Source: a virus | Length of the DNA stretch: 20,158 bases | IMG/VR virus record: IMGVR_UViG_3300022839_000116 | Coordinates: 1 to 20,158 of that record | Direction: 5' to 3' (one strand) | Shown: positions 3,636 through 10,637 of the stretch, one piece after another | How the letters are laid out: every line of letters begins with the position of its first letter | Position numbering within the stretch: position 1 is the stretch's first letter | Made by a program: the position numbers and the translations under genes | Notes under the pieces: generated by a model | What the model was told of the DNA's origin: nothing | Database searches by the model: none | Seen by the model: the letters and a program-made list of their open reading frames with translations, nothing else

Positions 3636-3862
3636 TGCTTGACGAACATACGCTATATTCTCCTGAAAAGGGTGAAGAAATTAAAGAGATAACATCAGAC
3701 ATAGTATCATTATTAGATGGGCTTGATCCAGAGGTTTCGTTTATTAGTTTAATAGCAGCATTGATGATCATTATTAAACATAACCCAACAGCGTTCTTTG
3801 ATGAAACTTCTGCTGTTAAATTAATCAAACACCTTGGGAGAAAGGATTCTAAATATGCTTGA
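3635..3862 (+). CDS. Hypothetical small protein
   Basis: This encodes 75 residues. GAAGGAAAAAGATA provides a ribosome site before ATG 3635. The N-terminus is acidic, the middle is hydrophobic and probably helical (FISLIAALMIIIKHNP), and the C-terminus is basic. The hydrophobic stretch could be a membrane helix, but the surrounding pattern also fits a buried helix in a small soluble protein. A minus-strand frame across it is only a shadow. Function unknown. Confidence 0.55.
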   Translation: MLDEHTLYSPEKGEEIKEITSDIVSLLDGLDPEVSFISLIAALMIIIKHNPTAFFDETSAVKLIKHLGRKDSKYA

Positions 3863-4046
3863 TTTAGATAAATACAAACAAAACCCATACGAAATAGAAC
3901 AATCTGTTTTAGAGGCTTTGCCTATGAAGGATATAGTTGAATTAACTAGTTATATTAATAATACTTTCGCAGAAATTATGGATATAATGAAAGTTCATAA
4001 AGCTAATATAGACAAGGTTAAAGTTATTCTTAAGGGTAGTTCTTAG
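3855..4046 (+). CDS. Hypothetical small helical protein, last gene of the cluster
   Basis: This encodes 63 residues. ATG 3855 is chosen over a TTG at 3834 because AAAGGAT lies about seven bases ahead of it. The sequence looks mostly helical (EIEQSVLEALPMKDIVELTSYINNTF, then AEIMDIMKVHKANIDKVKVIL). It ends the overlapping small-gene run and is followed by a non-coding gap with its own promoter, so it probably closes the operon. No terminator hairpin is obvious after it. Function unknown. Confidence 0.55.
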   Translation: MLDLDKYKQNPYEIEQSVLEALPMKDIVELTSYINNTFAEIMDIMKVHKANIDKVKVILKGSS

Positions 4047-4059
4047 GATAAATAATCTG

Positions 4060-4089
4060 TTGACAGTGCAATATATTGCATGACATAAT
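4060..4089 (+). promoter_or_regulatory. Sigma-70-type promoter with palindromic spacer
   Basis: TTGACA at 4060-4065 and CATAAT at 4084-4089 are separated by 18 bases. The spacer contains the perfect 14-base palindrome TGCAATATATTGCA (4067-4080). A start point about seven bases after the -10 element would fall near 4096-4097. The palindrome's position between the two elements is a classic place for a dimeric repressor to block polymerase. It drives the rtcB unit. Confidence 0.7.
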
Positions 4090-4096
4090 TTATGTG

Positions 4097-4190
4097 GGTT
4101 GGGTGTAAGTTAAACGGCCATGGTGACGTTGACAAAGTAAACTCCCACTATGTGGGAAATGAGGAATGCCAAACCTCCACCCACCCAACC
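4097..4190 (+). ncRNA. Structured 5' leader of rtcB, candidate cis-acting RNA
   Basis: GGTTGGGTG (4097-4105) can pair with CACCCAACC (4182-4190), a perfect 9-bp helix closing a 76-base interior. Inside it, TCCCAC-TAT-GTGGGA (4143-4157) is a 6-bp hairpin and GAGG (4161-4164) can pair with CCTC (4174-4177). The outer helix starts almost exactly where the promoter would begin transcription. The leader ends 27 bases before the rtcB GTG. It also contains two tiny frames, MVTLTK (4120) and a 17-codon proline-rich one (4150-4203), neither with a good ribosome site. I do not recognise a known riboswitch class. Confidence 0.4.
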
Positions 4191-4217
4191 AACCAAATAT
4201 TAAGTTAGGATTGATCT

Positions 4218-5414
4218 GTGAAATATATTCATTCAAAAAAACCTATTAAAATGTGGACTGATTACGTTCCTGTTGAAGAACAGGCATTGCAACAAATTAT
4301 GAATATCTCTCAAATGCCGTTTATCCATAAACACATTGCCATTATGCCAGATGTTCATTATGGGATTGGTGCAACTGTTGGGTCTGTAATCCCTACAAAA
4401 GGGGCTATTATCCCAGCTGCTGTAGGTGTTGATATTGGTTGTGGTATGATGGCAGCAAAAACATCTTTGACTTCAAAAGACCTTCCTGATGATCTAGCTG
4501 GTTTACGTTCTCTTATTGAGGCTGCAATACCTGTTGGGATGAATAGATTTCAGGAAAGCAATCTACCTTATATTAGTAGGCTTTATTATGACCAGCACTG
4601 CTCAAAATCATATGATAAGATAATTGCAAGTCATCCAAAAATTGCAGTAAATATGAGCCCTGCATACCAATTAGGAACTCTTGGTTCTGGTAACCATTTT
4701 ATAGAACTGTGTTTAGACAAAGAAGATGCTTTATGGATTATGCTTCACTCAGGGTCTCGTGGAGTTGGGAACAGGATTGGAACATATTTCATATCTAAAG
4801 CTAAAGAAGAAATGGAAAAGTATCATATAGATAGTTACCTTCCCGATAAAGATTTAAGTTATCTTGTCGAGCACACAGAACTTTTCGATGATTACATAGA
4901 GGCTATGGAATTTGCTCAATCGTATGCTTTACTCAACAGAAATGCTATGTTTATATCTGTTTGGGGAATACTTTCGAAGTTTTTTGATAGAAATGTTGAA
5001 TATAAAGAAGAGGCAATCAATTGCCATCACAACTATACAACGCGGGAGAACCATTTCGGTGAAAATGTTTGGTTAACTCGTAAAGGTGCTGTTAATGCTT
5101 CTAAGGGTAAATTGGGTATTATCCCTGGGTCTATGGGCGCAAGGTCGTTTATTGTGCGCGGCCTAGGCAATACTGAGTCATTTAATTCTTGTTCCCATGG
5201 TGCAGGTCGTGTAATGTCGAGAACTCAAGCTAAAAAGGTGATTTCTCTTGAGGAGCACATTCAAGACACAAAAGGTGTTGAATGTCGTAAAGATGTTGAT
5301 GTTATTGATGAAACTCCAAAGGCTTACAAGAACATTGAAGATGTCATGAAGTCTCAAGAAGACCTTGTGGAAATTGTATATGAACTTAAACAAATATTAT
5401 GCGTGAAAGGTTAA
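4218..5414 (+). CDS. rtcB: RtcB-type RNA-splicing ligase
   Basis: RtcB joins RNA ends bearing 2',3'-cyclic phosphate or 3'-phosphate to 5'-OH ends, using GTP and Mn2+. The 398 residues are close to the roughly 408 of the E. coli enzyme. All key positions are present: D72 and C75 in VDIGCGM, H160 in GSGNHFIEL, H177 in HSGSRGVGN, H271 in HHNY as metal ligands, and H327 in SCSHGAGR as the residue guanylylated in the family. Translation starts at GTG 4218 with AGGAT upstream. It is the first gene of a three-gene unit behind a dedicated promoter and leader. Phage RNA ligases usually repair tRNAs cut by host anticodon nucleases; that role is inferred here. Confidence 0.95.
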   Translation: MKYIHSKKPIKMWTDYVPVEEQALQQIMNISQMPFIHKHIAIMPDVHYGIGATVGSVIPTKGAIIPAAVGVDIGCGMMAAKTSLTSKDLPDDLAGLRSLIEAAIPVGMNRFQESNLPYISRLYYDQHCSKSYDKIIASHPKIAVNMSPAYQLGTLGSGNHFIELCLDKEDALWIMLHSGSRGVGNRIGTYFISKAKEEMEKYHIDSYLPDKDLSYLVEHTELFDDYIEAMEFAQSYALLNRNAMFISVWGILSKFFDRNVEYKEEAINCHHNYTTRENHFGENVWLTRKGAVNASKGKLGIIPGSMGARSFIVRGLGNTESFNSCSHGAGRVMSRTQAKKVISLEEHIQDTKGVECRKDVDVIDETPKAYKNIEDVMKSQEDLVEIVYELKQILCVKG

Positions 5415-5416
5415 CA

Positions 5417-5764
5417 ATGGATAGCTTCACAATATTCACATGGGCTCTTACAGCTTCCACAATAGCTGGGACTTATTTAAACAGTAAGCAAAACAAGTAT
5501 GGCTTCCTCGTATGGGGTTTGTGTAACATGCTTTGGCTTGGTGTAGACTTTACACGTGGTATATATGCGCAAGCTGCGTTATATGTAGTGTTTATAGGGT
5601 TTAACATATACGGCTGGCAGCAGTGGGGTAAGAAGGATTTTGACATAGTTATGTATGAATCACATGATATAGATAATCTTATCGTTAGATTAGAAAAACA
5701 TAAACTTAATATTAATGACACTCGGTGCTTAATAGAAATTCTTAAACGATTGCCAAGATATTAA
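5417..5764 (+). CDS. PnuC-like small membrane protein
   Basis: This encodes 115 residues. ATG 5417 is chosen over ATG 5399 because AAAGG sits seven bases before it and it starts just after the rtcB stop. Residues about 4-70 contain two to three membrane spans with the pattern WGLCNMLWLGVDF, a second span AALYVVFIGFNIYGW and QQW. The tail is soluble, charged and helical. The Trp-rich spans and the final GW-x-x-W resemble the C-terminal part of PnuC, the nicotinamide riboside/mononucleotide transporter. It is about half the usual length, so it may work as an oligomer or have another ligand. Being next to rtcB suggests a shared role in infection metabolism. Confidence 0.65.
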   Translation: MDSFTIFTWALTASTIAGTYLNSKQNKYGFLVWGLCNMLWLGVDFTRGIYAQAALYVVFIGFNIYGWQQWGKKDFDIVMYESHDIDNLIVRLEKHKLNINDTRCLIEILKRLPRY

Positions 5765-5782: not shown

Positions 5783-6022
5783 ATGGAAGATAAAGAAGAT
5801 AGAAAGAATTGGAAAGTAGGTCCTATAAACGTAGCTAAAGCTCTTATAGATATAGAAAAAAGAGGCGACGACTCGTTAATTTTTCTATATTCGATGTTTC
5901 TTAGCTCCAAATCACTTAGGGGAGAATTCATTGATTACTGTCGTATAGTTGAGGAAGCTCATAAAGACATTTTAAATGAAGAATTAATGTTGCAGAAACA
6001 ACAAGAGGATGCTACAAAGTAA
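5783..6022 (+). CDS. Hypothetical small helical protein
   Basis: This encodes 79 residues with AAAGGGAAA upstream of ATG 5783. The sequence is charged and mostly helical (EDKEDRKNWKVGP, then SLIFLYSMFLSSKSLRGEF and HKDILNEELMLQKQQEDATK). It is the last gene before a strong terminator, so it is cotranscribed with rtcB and the PnuC-like gene. It is small and lies ahead of the terminase, so a terminase small subunit was considered. It has no helix-turn-helix-like segment and the terminator separates the two, so the idea is weak. Confidence 0.6.
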   Translation: MEDKEDRKNWKVGPINVAKALIDIEKRGDDSLIFLYSMFLSSKSLRGEFIDYCRIVEEAHKDILNEELMLQKQQEDATK

Positions 6023-6148
6023 ATACTGGCAGCGATCGAGCTTAGTATGCTACGGCAACATCAAAGGCAGGTTATAGCTTCCATTCTCACATCGGTATGC
6101 TATAAGTCAGTAAACAATATCTGTTAGCATTAATCCTTTTGTTAATTT
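6023..6148 (+). other. Non-coding 3' region of the rtcB unit
   Basis: No credible frame is seen in these 126 bases. They contain a direct repeat GTATGCTA (6046-6053 and 6095-6102) and a 7-bp inverted repeat TTATAGC/GCTATAA (6072-6078 and 6099-6105) with a 20-base loop. They run straight into the terminator, so they form a long 3' untranslated tail that could be processed into a small RNA. No tRNA arms can be fitted. Confidence 0.35.
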
Positions 6149-6181
6149 AAAGAGTCTCCTTAAAACGGAGGCTCTTTTTTT
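6149..6181 (+). terminator. Intrinsic terminator after the rtcB unit
   Basis: AAAGAGTCTCC (6149-6159) pairs with GGAGGCTCTTT (6167-6177) over 11 bp with one G-T pair, around a TTAAAAC loop. A run of T follows to 6181. It separates the rtcB unit from the packaging genes. Confidence 0.9.
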
Positions 6182-6367: not shown

Positions 6368-7837
6368 ATGATTGAAGAATTCCAGAATCTTTCTCCTGAA
6401 GACTTACTGTATTGCTATAATGAAGCGATCGAGCGTCAAGCAATTGATGATCATATTAACTTTAAATACTACGCACCCTCACCTAAACAACTTGAGTTCC
6501 ATGCAACAGGTCCAGTAGCTCGTGAACGAATGTTTCGTGCGGCTAACCGAGTGGGCAAAAGCTTTTCGGTTTCAAGAGAAGGAGCAATGCACTTAACGGG
6601 AATTTATCCCGATTGGTGGAATGGGCATCGTTACGCTAATCCTATTAACATGTGGGCAGGTGGCGTAGCTGAAAGAGAAATGGCTCAGCTAAAAGAATAT
6701 TATATAGGTAATTTAGGTAAGCCTGGGGCTATTCATTCAAGTCTTATAGTTAAACAAGATTTAGCTCAGAACTTATATTACATACAGCATGTTTCTGGTG
6801 GAATTTCACGTCTTAGAATCAAGACATATAAACAAGGCCATGAAGCTTGGCAAGCCGAAAACGTAGACCTTATACATCTCGACGAAGAACCAACAAACAG
6901 TAAAATATATGATGAGTGCATAACGCGTACGGCTTCTGTAACTCCTGATCATTACGGCATGATTATGCTTAGTATGACGCCTCTCCATGGCATGACTAGT
7001 CTGATGTTAAAGTATATGGACAGAGCAGTATTCGACGATAACGGTCATGAGATTGACACAGTTCGTGTACGTGCTGGTGAAGTCATTAATGAGCGAGTTT
7101 ATATAACCGCTAATCATGATGAAGCTCCTCATTTAAGTGAAAAAGAAAAGAAAAGACTATACTCTTCATATGACCCTGTTGTCAGAGAAGCTAGAACGAC
7201 TGGTATCCCTTCTCTAGGGTCAGGTCTAATATATCCAATTAACGAACGAAGACTCGTTTGTGATCCATTTGAAATCCCTGATTATTGGCCGCGATGCTAT
7301 GGCATGGACTTTGGCTGGCACAACACTGCGGCTATTTTCGGCGCGCATGACAAAGAAAATGATGTTCTTTACCTTTATGCAGAATATAAGGCTGGTCACT
7401 TAACGCCGCATCACCATGCGGCGCATATCCTTAAACTAGGTGCAGATTGGATGCCTGGTGCTTATGACTATGCTGGAGAAAGTGCTAGTGCGATTACTGG
7501 GGAAAACGTTGTTGATCTATATCGCAATGAAGGCATTACGAATTGGGTAAGAGCTGACAAGAAAGTTACTGAAGGTATTTATAACGTTTTACAACGTATG
7601 GAAACTGACAGAATAAAGATATTCAGTCCTTTAAGAAAAACATTGGCTGAATTAAGACAATATATTCGTGATGACAATGGCAAGGTGGTCAAAGATGAAG
7701 ACCATATAATGGATGCATTACGCTATCTCGTAATGTCAGCTCTTCCTATCGCTCAAGTAAAATCTTCAATACTTAAAAAATACCAAATACCTATCCAAAG
7801 CCACTCTATGGGTCAAGGTAATTGGATGATGAGGTAA
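6368..7837 (+). CDS. terL: Terminase large subunit
   Basis: This is the ATP-driven DNA packaging motor and headful nuclease that docks on the portal. The 489 residues show an N-terminal ATPase with a Walker A-like AANRVGKS (58-65), Walker B DLIHLDEE (167-174) with the catalytic acidic pair, and an SMT coupling motif (202-204). The C-terminal RNase H-like nuclease has D314 in YGMDFGW, D367 in GAYDYAG and the DHIMDA motif with D445 and D449. The set is complete, so it should be active. Only a weak ribosome site precedes ATG 6368. No small subunit gene is recognised beside it, which is unusual. Confidence 0.95.
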   Translation: MIEEFQNLSPEDLLYCYNEAIERQAIDDHINFKYYAPSPKQLEFHATGPVARERMFRAANRVGKSFSVSREGAMHLTGIYPDWWNGHRYANPINMWAGGVAEREMAQLKEYYIGNLGKPGAIHSSLIVKQDLAQNLYYIQHVSGGISRLRIKTYKQGHEAWQAENVDLIHLDEEPTNSKIYDECITRTASVTPDHYGMIMLSMTPLHGMTSLMLKYMDRAVFDDNGHEIDTVRVRAGEVINERVYITANHDEAPHLSEKEKKRLYSSYDPVVREARTTGIPSLGSGLIYPINERRLVCDPFEIPDYWPRCYGMDFGWHNTAAIFGAHDKENDVLYLYAEYKAGHLTPHHHAAHILKLGADWMPGAYDYAGESASAITGENVVDLYRNEGITNWVRADKKVTEGIYNVLQRMETDRIKIFSPLRKTLAELRQYIRDDNGKVVKDEDHIMDALRYLVMSALPIAQVKSSILKKYQIPIQSHSMGQGNWMMR

Positions 7838-7840
7838 CAA

Positions 7841-9655
7841 ATGAAATTATCAGAATCTAGAGAAAAAGCATTATCAGACGCCAAGATACAGTTGTCTACT
7901 ATGGGTGGCAATCCCTTGTATCAGAAATGGCGTACTGCTGCTATTGAAAGCTTCAACTTCTATGACGGTATTGGACAATATAGTCCTGAAGTTATGAAGA
8001 GGCTTAGAATACGCAAGCAGGATACTATTGTCGTCAACAAAGTACGAAGCATGGTCAATCAGGCTTCAGGTATGGAAATTAACACACGAGGTAACATAGC
8101 GTTTTCGCCCCAATCTAACAGAGAAGAAGCCGAGCAACTAACTAAAGCATTGACTCATTTTGGTTTTGCTATTCAAAAGAATCAGAATTATTCATTCAAA
8201 GGATCTTTGAGATGCCGAGATTTGCTTACATGTGGTCTTGGGTGGTCGAGAACCGTTTATCAAAACAATCAATTCTTCTATGATTACATTAACCCTCTGA
8301 ATGTCATATACGATGCTGACGACTTCAGCCCTCAGTTAGAGAATCAGCGTGGTTTAATCTATATGCACTGGATGTCTCCAAACGATGCTAAAGCTGCTTG
8401 GTCTAAATTTGAAAAACAAATAGATAACATATCTAAGAATGATTTTGATAATGCGGGGAACTTCACTTCTGAATATTTTAACCGCAACACTCCTTTCATT
8501 AATATGAGTAATGTAGGAAGCAACGGAACAACTCTTCAAATTAACGAATGTTTCAAAAAACAAGCATGTGACTATTATCATGGTCTTGATAAACATGGAT
8601 ATTATTTTGAAACATATGATGAAGAATATGCCGAGAAGATAGCTGAAAAGAAATCTGAAATTATTGAAGAGAAAGGTACGCGGATCATGCGTACAGTATT
8701 CTGCAATGATATTCTGTTTGAGTATGGTCCTCTCACTCCAAGCTTACCTAGACAAGACTTCCCTTTAACGCCTGCGGTTTGGTTAAGAAGAACATGTGAT
8801 GGTGTTCCTGTCGGCTGGATGGAAGATTTTAAAGACCTACAAAGGCTACTTAACTTCACAAAGCTTAAGCAAGTTATGTCTCTCAATTCTGCAAGAGCTC
8901 GTATTGATGTAAATGCTATTCAGGGTATGAGCGCAGAAGAAATAATGGAACAGGTTCAAGACCCTTCTGGAATCTTGTTCACTACGGGTCAAGGTCCTGT
9001 TGAAATTACGCCTAATATTGATATTTCAGAAGCCATGATTAAAGCTTCTGAGCGTCTTGATTACGAATTGCAACAAGTATCTGGAATGTATAGTGACTCC
9101 ATGGGAGATACCACCAATGCGCAAAGTGGTGTCGCTATTAAAAGAAGGCAAATTGCCTCTTCAAAGAACTTAGCGTTTGGATTTGATGCTTTTACATACG
9201 TTAAAGAGCGTGAAGGTAAGCTTCTTCTTGATCTAATGCAAGGATGTGGACTCGAAAATGTTCTTGTCAATATTGTCTTGGATGATGATGAAAAAGATGA
9301 CTTCATCATGAATATGGTTCGTGAAAGTGACGGAAAAATACTAAATGATGTTCGTACTATTCCAGCGGATGTGTATGTGGAAATTGTTCCTGACTTCGAC
9401 TCGTCTACTCAAGAGCGTCAGGAAATTCTTAAAGAGTTATTACAGAATCCAATTGCTCCGATCCTTCTGCAAAACAAACCTCTTCTTAAAGAATATATCG
9501 GCGCACGCAATGTCGACAAAATAGCTGAAGCTGCTCAACAAATTCAACAACAGCAGAATGAACAACAGTTAGCTATGAAGGGTGTTTCTTCAGGGGCTCC
9601 CCCACAAAGTGTAGATTCAATTAACCCTACACAATTAGGTAATGTTGATGTCTGA
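7841..9655 (+). CDS. Portal protein, P22-like
   Basis: The portal forms the dodecameric ring at one capsid vertex through which DNA enters and leaves. This encodes 604 residues starting three bases after the terminase stop, with GAGGTAA ahead of ATG 7841. The N-terminal region (WRTAAIESFNFYDGIGQYS, then VVNKVRSMVNQASGMEIN) and the mid-region with CRDLLTCGLGWSRTVYQ and NPLNVIYDADDFSP follow the P22-type portal layout. The C-terminus is Gln-rich (QQIQQQQNEQQ), as in a helical barrel. It is shorter than P22's 725-residue portal, so the barrel may be reduced. The patatin gene begins inside its last codons. Confidence 0.9.
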   Translation: MKLSESREKALSDAKIQLSTMGGNPLYQKWRTAAIESFNFYDGIGQYSPEVMKRLRIRKQDTIVVNKVRSMVNQASGMEINTRGNIAFSPQSNREEAEQLTKALTHFGFAIQKNQNYSFKGSLRCRDLLTCGLGWSRTVYQNNQFFYDYINPLNVIYDADDFSPQLENQRGLIYMHWMSPNDAKAAWSKFEKQIDNISKNDFDNAGNFTSEYFNRNTPFINMSNVGSNGTTLQINECFKKQACDYYHGLDKHGYYFETYDEEYAEKIAEKKSEIIEEKGTRIMRTVFCNDILFEYGPLTPSLPRQDFPLTPAVWLRRTCDGVPVGWMEDFKDLQRLLNFTKLKQVMSLNSARARIDVNAIQGMSAEEIMEQVQDPSGILFTTGQGPVEITPNIDISEAMIKASERLDYELQQVSGMYSDSMGDTTNAQSGVAIKRRQIASSKNLAFGFDAFTYVKEREGKLLLDLMQGCGLENVLVNIVLDDDEKDDFIMNMVRESDGKILNDVRTIPADVYVEIVPDFDSSTQERQEILKELLQNPIAPILLQNKPLLKEYIGARNVDKIAEAAQQIQQQQNEQQLAMKGVSSGAPPQSVDSINPTQLGNVDV

Positions 9656-10637
9656 TCCTAATACACTCCGTATCCTGTCTATTGACGGTGGTGGCATGCG
9701 TGGGACGTTTAGTGTTCAGTGGATGCAAGAGTTTGTTAATTTGTGGGGAATCAACCCAAATGAAATATGGAAATACTTTGATGTTGTTTGTGGAACAAGC
9801 GCAGGTGGATTGCAAGTTCTAGGTTACGGAGGTGGTTTATCCCCGGCTGACCTTATGGCATTCCTTGAAAGCGCAGGTCCATGGATATTTTCTACCTCCT
9901 CAGTTGTTCCAGGTGTTAGAGCAACTTATTTAGATAAGCTAGCTACGATGATACTTGGTGGCTCATTTTATCCTAATACAAATTTTATAAGTGAACTTGA
10001 TGGATTGTTTGGCAATCTGAACATGCAAAACCTTAACGTAAACTCACTTATCACCTCATACAATGACAATACTGATACTCCTGTTCTTTTCTCTAATAGA
10101 ACTTTTCCTCAGTCTTCAGGGGCGAATGAATTAATGAAGAATGTTGGTCTAGCCACTTCTTCTGCTCCATTGTATTTTCCTCCTGCAAACTGGGCGGGTA
10201 TAAACTTTCGTGATGGTGCTTGTATAAAAAACAACCCTGCGCTGTTGGGATATATGCTTGGCAACGTTGTTAAGCCTAATGCTAATCGCACATGTATATT
10301 AACCATTGGTTCTGGTCTTGGGGACATAGGGTTTGATCAACCTTCTGAAACCCCTCCCCCTCCTGACGAAAGCAATATGGCATATGTGTTCAGGCTTTTA
10401 TCTGTTCTTATTACAGGTCCTCAAGAAACAGATGCTGTGCTTTTAGAGAATCTTGATCAATACACTCTACAGAATATATACACCTACAGGGCTAACGCTC
10501 AACTAGACCCTGACCTTGATACCGAATTAGACAACACAACACCTGAATTTATTGCTTACATGAAAAACCTTGCAACGACTACATTTAACAATGATCTGGT
10601 TAAGATATCGGATTTTCTAGCTCATTTGACGTTATAG
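9648..10637 (+). CDS. Patatin-like phospholipase
   Basis: Patatin-family enzymes are lipid acyl hydrolases with a Ser-Asp dyad. The 329 residues carry the oxyanion-hole motif DGGGMRG (13-19), the nucleophile elbow GTSAG with S51 (49-53), the conserved ATSSAPLYFPP block (169-179) and the DGA motif with D189. The catalytic set is therefore complete. ATG 9648 is preferred over 9642 because AGG at 9637-9639 is correctly spaced. There is no signal peptide or membrane span. The gene overlaps the portal stop and is followed by fibre genes, so it is probably expressed with virion proteins. It could act on host membranes during entry or exit, or be an intracellular effector. The position is odd for a P22-like map. 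Confidence 0.9.
   Translation: MSDPNTLRILSIDGGGMRGTFSVQWMQEFVNLWGINPNEIWKYFDVVCGTSAGGLQVLGYGGGLSPADLMAFLESAGPWIFSTSSVVPGVRATYLDKLATMILGGSFYPNTNFISELDGLFGNLNMQNLNVNSLITSYNDNTDTPVLFSNRTFPQSSGANELMKNVGLATSSAPLYFPPANWAGINFRDGACIKNNPALLGYMLGNVVKPNANRTCILTIGSGLGDIGFDQPSETPPPPDESNMAYVFRLLSVLITGPQETDAVLLENLDQYTLQNIYTYRANAQLDPDLDTELDNTTPEFIAYMKNLATTTFNNDLVKISDFLAHLTL

Follow-up and report, generated by a model that had tools for sequence, protein, structure and literature searches.

The transcript that carries rtcB in this phage is predicted to begin inside a perfectly paired 9-bp helix, and stems at the corresponding position follow a similar promoter in related phages. We analyzed a virus record of 20,158 bases (the window, the whole stretch of DNA examined) and give a probability of about one half to the reading that the rtcB leader is a 5'-terminal stem shielding the transcript start, that the promoter and stem together are fixed in this genomic slot, and that rtcB was placed behind them. 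By its form the leader belongs to a known kind of element, the 5'-terminal protective stems, and it may share their function. RppH, RNase E, or the corresponding host enzymes require an unpaired 5' end; with the first nucleotides paired, the triphosphate would be hidden from them, and a hidden 5' end would make the transcript long-lived. The promoter-plus-stem design would be a standing part of the slot, used in the relatives before tRNA and tRNA-like genes, and in this phage rtcB would have been placed behind a promoter and stem that already existed.

The window contains the terminase gene (6368–7837), the portal gene (7841–9655), and capsid genes. The RNA ligase gene rtcB (4218–5414, plus strand) has a GTG start codon with AGGA at 4207–4210, and is followed on the same strand by a gene for a short PnuC-like membrane protein (5417–5764; its reading frame is open from 5399) and by a gene encoding 79 amino acids without an assigned family (5783–6022). 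Upstream of the leader lies a plus-strand gene of 63 amino acids, also without a family (3855–4046), which was used as the marker of the slot. An intrinsic terminator-like site on the plus strand (6149–6177) is the probable end of the transcript begun at approximately 4097, which probably carries rtcB, the PnuC-like gene, and the small gene. The region between the small gene and the terminator (6023–6148) was considered as a second RNA and rejected, as its folding z was -0.66 and its Rfam matches were all below the cut-off. A patatin-like phospholipase gene (9642–10637) adjoins the portal gene, and the related contig L084 contains an open reading frame of similar length and look 3' of its portal gene. 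A search of bacterial genomes with the portal gave no match pointing to a host, and the terminase search gave 10 distant relatives from mixed phyla that were 31–50% identical over the best segment. Among the portals of the phage collection, the one with the best coverage came from a Megaira phage (24%).

A sigma-70-type promoter, TTGACA-18 nt-CATAAT with TG before the -10 box, is located at 4060–4089 on the plus strand and matches the consensus at 11 of 12 positions. The +1 position derived from this promoter is approximately 4096–4097, at an offset of 36–37 from the -35 box, and we infer that transcription starts at approximately 4097. A perfect 14-bp palindrome, TGCAATATATTGCA, lies between the -35 and -10 boxes (4067–4080) and is a possible operator; it is absent from L084 and from the contigs of the L087 group. 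In the fold prediction, GGTTGGGTG (4097–4105, plus strand) is perfectly paired with CACCCAACC (4182–4190, plus strand). This 9-bp helix had been described in the first-pass annotation and was found where it had been placed, as were the two plus-strand hairpins enclosed by it, one of 6 bp with a loop of 3 (4143–4157; 4143–4148/4152–4157) and one of 4 bp with a loop of 9 (4161–4177; 4161–4164/4174–4177). An irregular hairpin of 7 pairs (4109–4133), missing from that annotation, is also enclosed by the helix. When the start was set at 4097, the probability of being unpaired was ≤0.02 for each of the first 9 nucleotides, and when it was set at 4096 the value for the first nucleotide was 0.24. The 3' end of the helix is 16 nt upstream of the rtcB ribosome-binding site, with which neither arm overlaps. 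Folds extended to 4260 or 4300 contained an AT-rich hairpin, separate from the 9-bp helix, that paired the rtcB start codon and most of the AGGA.

The total folding energy of the leader was mildly unusual. The z value of 4097–4217 was -1.44 (17 of 200 shuffles were equally good) and that of 4097–4195 was -2.24 (4 of 200), while energies as low were found in 3 of 1003 sliding 99-mers of the window, or, once G+C had been regressed out, in 24 of 1003. A stem as good at the transcript start occurred in 9 of 2000 shuffles with Watson-Crick pairs only and in 15 of 2000 with G-U pairs allowed; 14 of 2864 sampled window positions carried an equally good stem. In this test the 5' arm had to begin 35–39 nt past the start of the -35 box, a range picked after the window stem was seen; as a check, stems were scored at 150 offsets around the promoter. 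The best window stem in that scan began at offset 37, which is the predicted +1 and leaves few unpaired 5' nucleotides, and the best stem of the 150 offsets began at offset 31–38 in all four sources tested. These results indicate that bulk folding barely exceeds chance, whereas a stem positioned where the transcript is predicted to start does exceed it. A phage leader that merely happens to fold, under its C-rich stretch (4174–4194), is a quite unlikely explanation: z values of just -1.4 to -2.2, the z ≤ -1.44 reached by 10 of the 78 other phage rtcB leaders, and the equally good stems at those 14 of 2864 window positions are consistent with it, whereas the location of the window stem at the predicted +1 and the stems at the same offset in two other lineages argue against it.

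We collected the relatives by searching viral contigs with the terminase and the portal, which gave 14 contigs (L083–L085, L087–L091, and L093–L098) with terminases 56–63% identical to that of the window. A nearly identical phage (L082, 99.5% identical over the shared part) begins at window position 6107 and hence does not include the leader region. Homologues of the 63-amino-acid gene were found in 10 of the 14 contigs and were not found in L095 and L097; L094 and L096 begin too near the terminase gene to be judged. A TTGACA box lies 3' of this gene in 8 of the 10 (L084, L085, L087–L091, and L098), each with a possible -10 box at the spacing of the window that is, by eye, weaker than that of the window. 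In the other two, L083 and L093, no TTGACA box was seen by eye 3' of the gene and the terminase gene comes directly next. From the -35 box onward, the window has 24 of 37 bases in common with L084/L085 and 17–18 of 37 with L087, L089, and L098.

In all 8 relatives with the TTGACA box, the transcript would begin in a stem of 10–18 bp located 35–38 nt from the -35 box. The stem of L084/L085, AAACATGCCA/TGGTATGTTT, has 10 bp at offset 38 and was matched by 10 and 11 of 2000 shuffles, and that of the six contigs of the L087 group, which has 17–18 bp around GTAAACACAT/ATGTGTTTAC at offset 35, was matched by 0–2 of 2000. The 8 relatives represent two lineages, or three when the window is counted, and searching with the loop conserved in the L087 group returned the same six contigs only. 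With the start at offset 36, the first eight nucleotides were mostly paired in the window, L084, L087, L089, and L098; with the start at offset 37–38, the 5' ends of L087 and L098 were partly open. In regards to L088, the 5' end was open in the 120-nt fold (125 of 150 shuffles were at least as closed at offset 36, and 148 of 150 at offsets 37 and 38), and the stem was restored once the whole tRNA-like gene was folded along with it.

The stems of the relatives were in register under MAFFT (12 pairs, 7 distinct rows), with 95.2% of cells paired compared with 29.8–59.8% when the alignment was slid by 1–3 columns, and RNAalifold predicted the same stem. Two pairs were changed on both sides (C-G/U-A and U-A/C-G), and these compensated changes fall between the two lineages and thus amount to few events. 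The covariation score was equalled in 2 of 500 shuffles; the double-change pairs and the further pair types did not exceed those of the shuffles (304 and 463 of 500, respectively). The helix of the relatives passed the refutation test put forward in the first-pass annotation, which looks for mismatches that lack compensating changes. This pairing is present in the stem of the relatives, to which nothing in the window leader could be aligned beyond the promoter, so the covariation supports the design and not the window's own pairs. A blastn search of 4031–4230 against 84 loci gave no significant leader homologue, the best match being the promoter region of L084/L085 (E = 0.11). A scan of viral contigs for GGTTGGGTGNAAGTTAA gave 13 matches, which were rejected as leader homologues and read as chance; blastn of 4031–4230 aligned 17–20 bases at the pattern (E = 0.005–0.21).

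The genes behind the promoter differ among these phages. In L084/L085 the slot holds tRNA-Met and a 92-nt RNA resembling DUF3800-V, followed by a PnuC-like gene. The DUF3800-V-like RNA (L084:5523–5614 and L085:790–881) adjoins tRNA-Met, scored 28.2 bits against a cut-off of 37.4 (E = 7e-4), and carries ACCA behind an acceptor-like stem of 7 bp. The slot of the L087 group holds tRNA-like genes, some of which were found by ARAGORN with an unreadable anticodon: those at L087:476–548, L089:5148–5220, and L090:1534–1606 were given a two-letter anticodon (ta), and their loop apparently has 8 nt. Other tRNA-like genes (L087:554–658 and L088:6542–6645, also in L091 and L098) have good acceptor, D, and T arms, and a long hairpin, variable from phage to phage, stands in place of the anticodon arm; they are natural tRNA-scaffold RNAs and possibly decoys. 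A hammerhead type III-like sequence (37.9 bits against a cut-off of 48.5, E = 1.8e-6) is located just 3' of the tRNA array in L089 (5329–5397). Self-cleavage by hammerheads leaves ends of the type that RtcB joins, and no rtcB was found in this L089 locus.

In the window, rtcB occupies the position that is held by tRNA and tRNA-like genes in the relatives. The nearest rtcB found (L002, 77% identical) lies among other genes and lacks a leader of the window type. No TTGACA promoter was found upstream of it, its best plus-strand sites having 9 of 12 matches, and its upstream 121 nt folded with a z of -1.57 and without a stem at a known start. We therefore rejected rtcB as the carrier of the leader. 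We also rejected the idea that phage rtcB genes generally have folded leaders, since the mean z was 0.03 over 78 of the 80 loci surveyed (the upstream sequence of L022 and L023 was too short for inclusion). In 10 of the 80 loci (L021, L042, L043, L050, L054, L059, L062, L071, L073, and L075) a tRNA-Pro was present no more than 400 nt from rtcB, and 15 of 80 had any tRNA that near, counts that may include near-duplicate loci and that use an assumed gene end for downstream distances. Because the nearest rtcB is without the leader and the stems of the relatives precede tRNA genes, the leader goes with the promoter and the slot, not with rtcB. The link to rtcB or the NAD genes that the first-pass annotation had drawn is not supported by the same observation, since a structure whose counterpart in the relatives precedes tRNA genes does not travel with either.

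That annotation had proposed a structured leader responding to a ligand or to RNA. Its structural part was borne out, in that a strong promoter is present and the first bases are paired; its sensing part was not. We consider a leader sensing NAD, a tRNA fragment, or another ligand very unlikely. The products of the adjoining genes handle RNA ends and perhaps nicotinamide mononucleotide, which would suit such a sensor, and the expression of rtcB answers tRNA fragments in some bacteria, but it does so through the protein RtcR according to PMC7790460. Rfam 15 gave nothing at the gathering threshold for the leader, and at E ≤ 10 only two spurious minus-strand matches; no covariance model of a riboswitch or T-box matched. 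No intrinsic terminator of the kind needed for an attenuator was found on the plus strand of 4097–4217, the helix does not reach the ribosome-binding site, the nearest rtcB has no such leader, and the hairpin of the relatives has no rtcB behind it.

Control of rtcB by a leader peptide with a Pro-Pro-Pro stall is extremely unlikely. The two short frames described earlier do exist, one of 17 codons plus stop (MWEMRNAKPPPTQPTKY; 4150–4203, plus strand) and one encoding MVTLTK (4120–4140), and the longer one, with its PPP run, stops 14 nt upstream of the rtcB start codon. Against its translation, neither frame is preceded by a Shine-Dalgarno sequence, the start codon of the longer frame falls in the 6-bp hairpin, across its loop and stem, and its length was equalled or exceeded in 1245 of 5000 shuffles, as expected by chance. 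The codons of its Pro run come from the helix, on its C-rich 3' side. The suggested translation-stall frame is probably not a gene.

Three further readings were considered. The 94-nt folded RNA may be a product of its own, released and stable, either as a small phage RNA or as a worn tRNA-like relic of the slot. We regard this as unlikely. The window element is similar in size to the slot RNAs, ending in a helix and a short C-rich tail, and the tRNA-Met with its 92-nt DUF3800-V-like neighbor (28.2 of 37.4 bits) and the tRNA-like genes of the L087 group, some with enlarged anticodon arms, are precedents. Yet ARAGORN found 0 tRNA genes in the window, no Rfam tRNA model matched 4000–4260 at E ≤ 10, no T-arm was seen by eye, the AACCA tail is out of phase with a 7-bp acceptor plus CCA, and DUF3800-V (RF02964, cut-off 37.4 bits) did not match the leader. 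The stem could instead be a processing signal at which RNase III or an enzyme like it would trim the RNA ahead of the tRNAs or rtcB. This proposal, which we hold to be quite improbable, draws on the L088 hairpin directly adjoining the tRNA-like gene and on the 17–18 bp of the L087 group stem; the stems of the window (9 bp) and L084 (10 bp) are short for RNase III, and sequence cannot reveal a cut site. Finally, the slot may be an exchangeable RNA-defence cassette in which the +1 stem yields a long-lived carrier transcript, while the phages exchange what lies behind it: tRNAs, tRNA-scaffold RNAs whose anticodon arms are rebuilt and which may act as decoys against the tRNA nucleases of the host, and here RtcB. 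The large window leader would itself serve as a decoy or guide RNA. We judge this decidedly unlikely.

In regards to the protective terminal stem, several observations count against it. The window stem does not align with those of the relatives, its overall fold is only mildly better than shuffles, two of the 10 relatives with the marker gene show no TTGACA box in the slot, and the 5' end of L088 is open in the 120-nt fold. Moreover, plain end protection needs no enclosure of 76 nt with inner hairpins, as found in the window, where the stems of the relatives enclose 18–31 nt. If the protective reading is true, a phage family keeps a paired transcript start while swapping the genes behind it, and the role of the 5' end in phage RNA stability becomes testable. 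It would also link the rtcB of this phage to the tRNA slot, which is consistent with tRNA repair as its task. A sensor would have been more surprising but is not what the evidence suggests.

A literature search on structured phage leaders and riboswitches together with rtcB and tRNA surfaced only a review of leaderless mRNA translation, and we claim no wider absence. PMC7790460 describes RtcR as a protein sensor of tRNA fragments and a transcription activator. The window resembles the RtcR-controlled rtcBA operons in that rtcB is under special control, but it has a sigma-70-type promoter, and the scanned window proteins showed neither RtcR nor RtcA. With NAD-I, NAD-II, and other riboswitches of Rfam 15, the window shares a leader before an operon with a PnuC-like gene; unlike them, its leader has no covariance-model match and no expression platform. 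The leaders of ompA and papA are reportedly 5'-terminal stem-loops that stabilize bacterial mRNA, also when appended to bla. The window stem differs from these in enclosing 76 nt with inner hairpins, its end protection is predicted from sequence, and the stems of its relatives precede tRNA and tRNA-like genes. It is like them in that the stem begins with the first nucleotides, no 5' end is left unpaired, and a strong promoter lies ahead.
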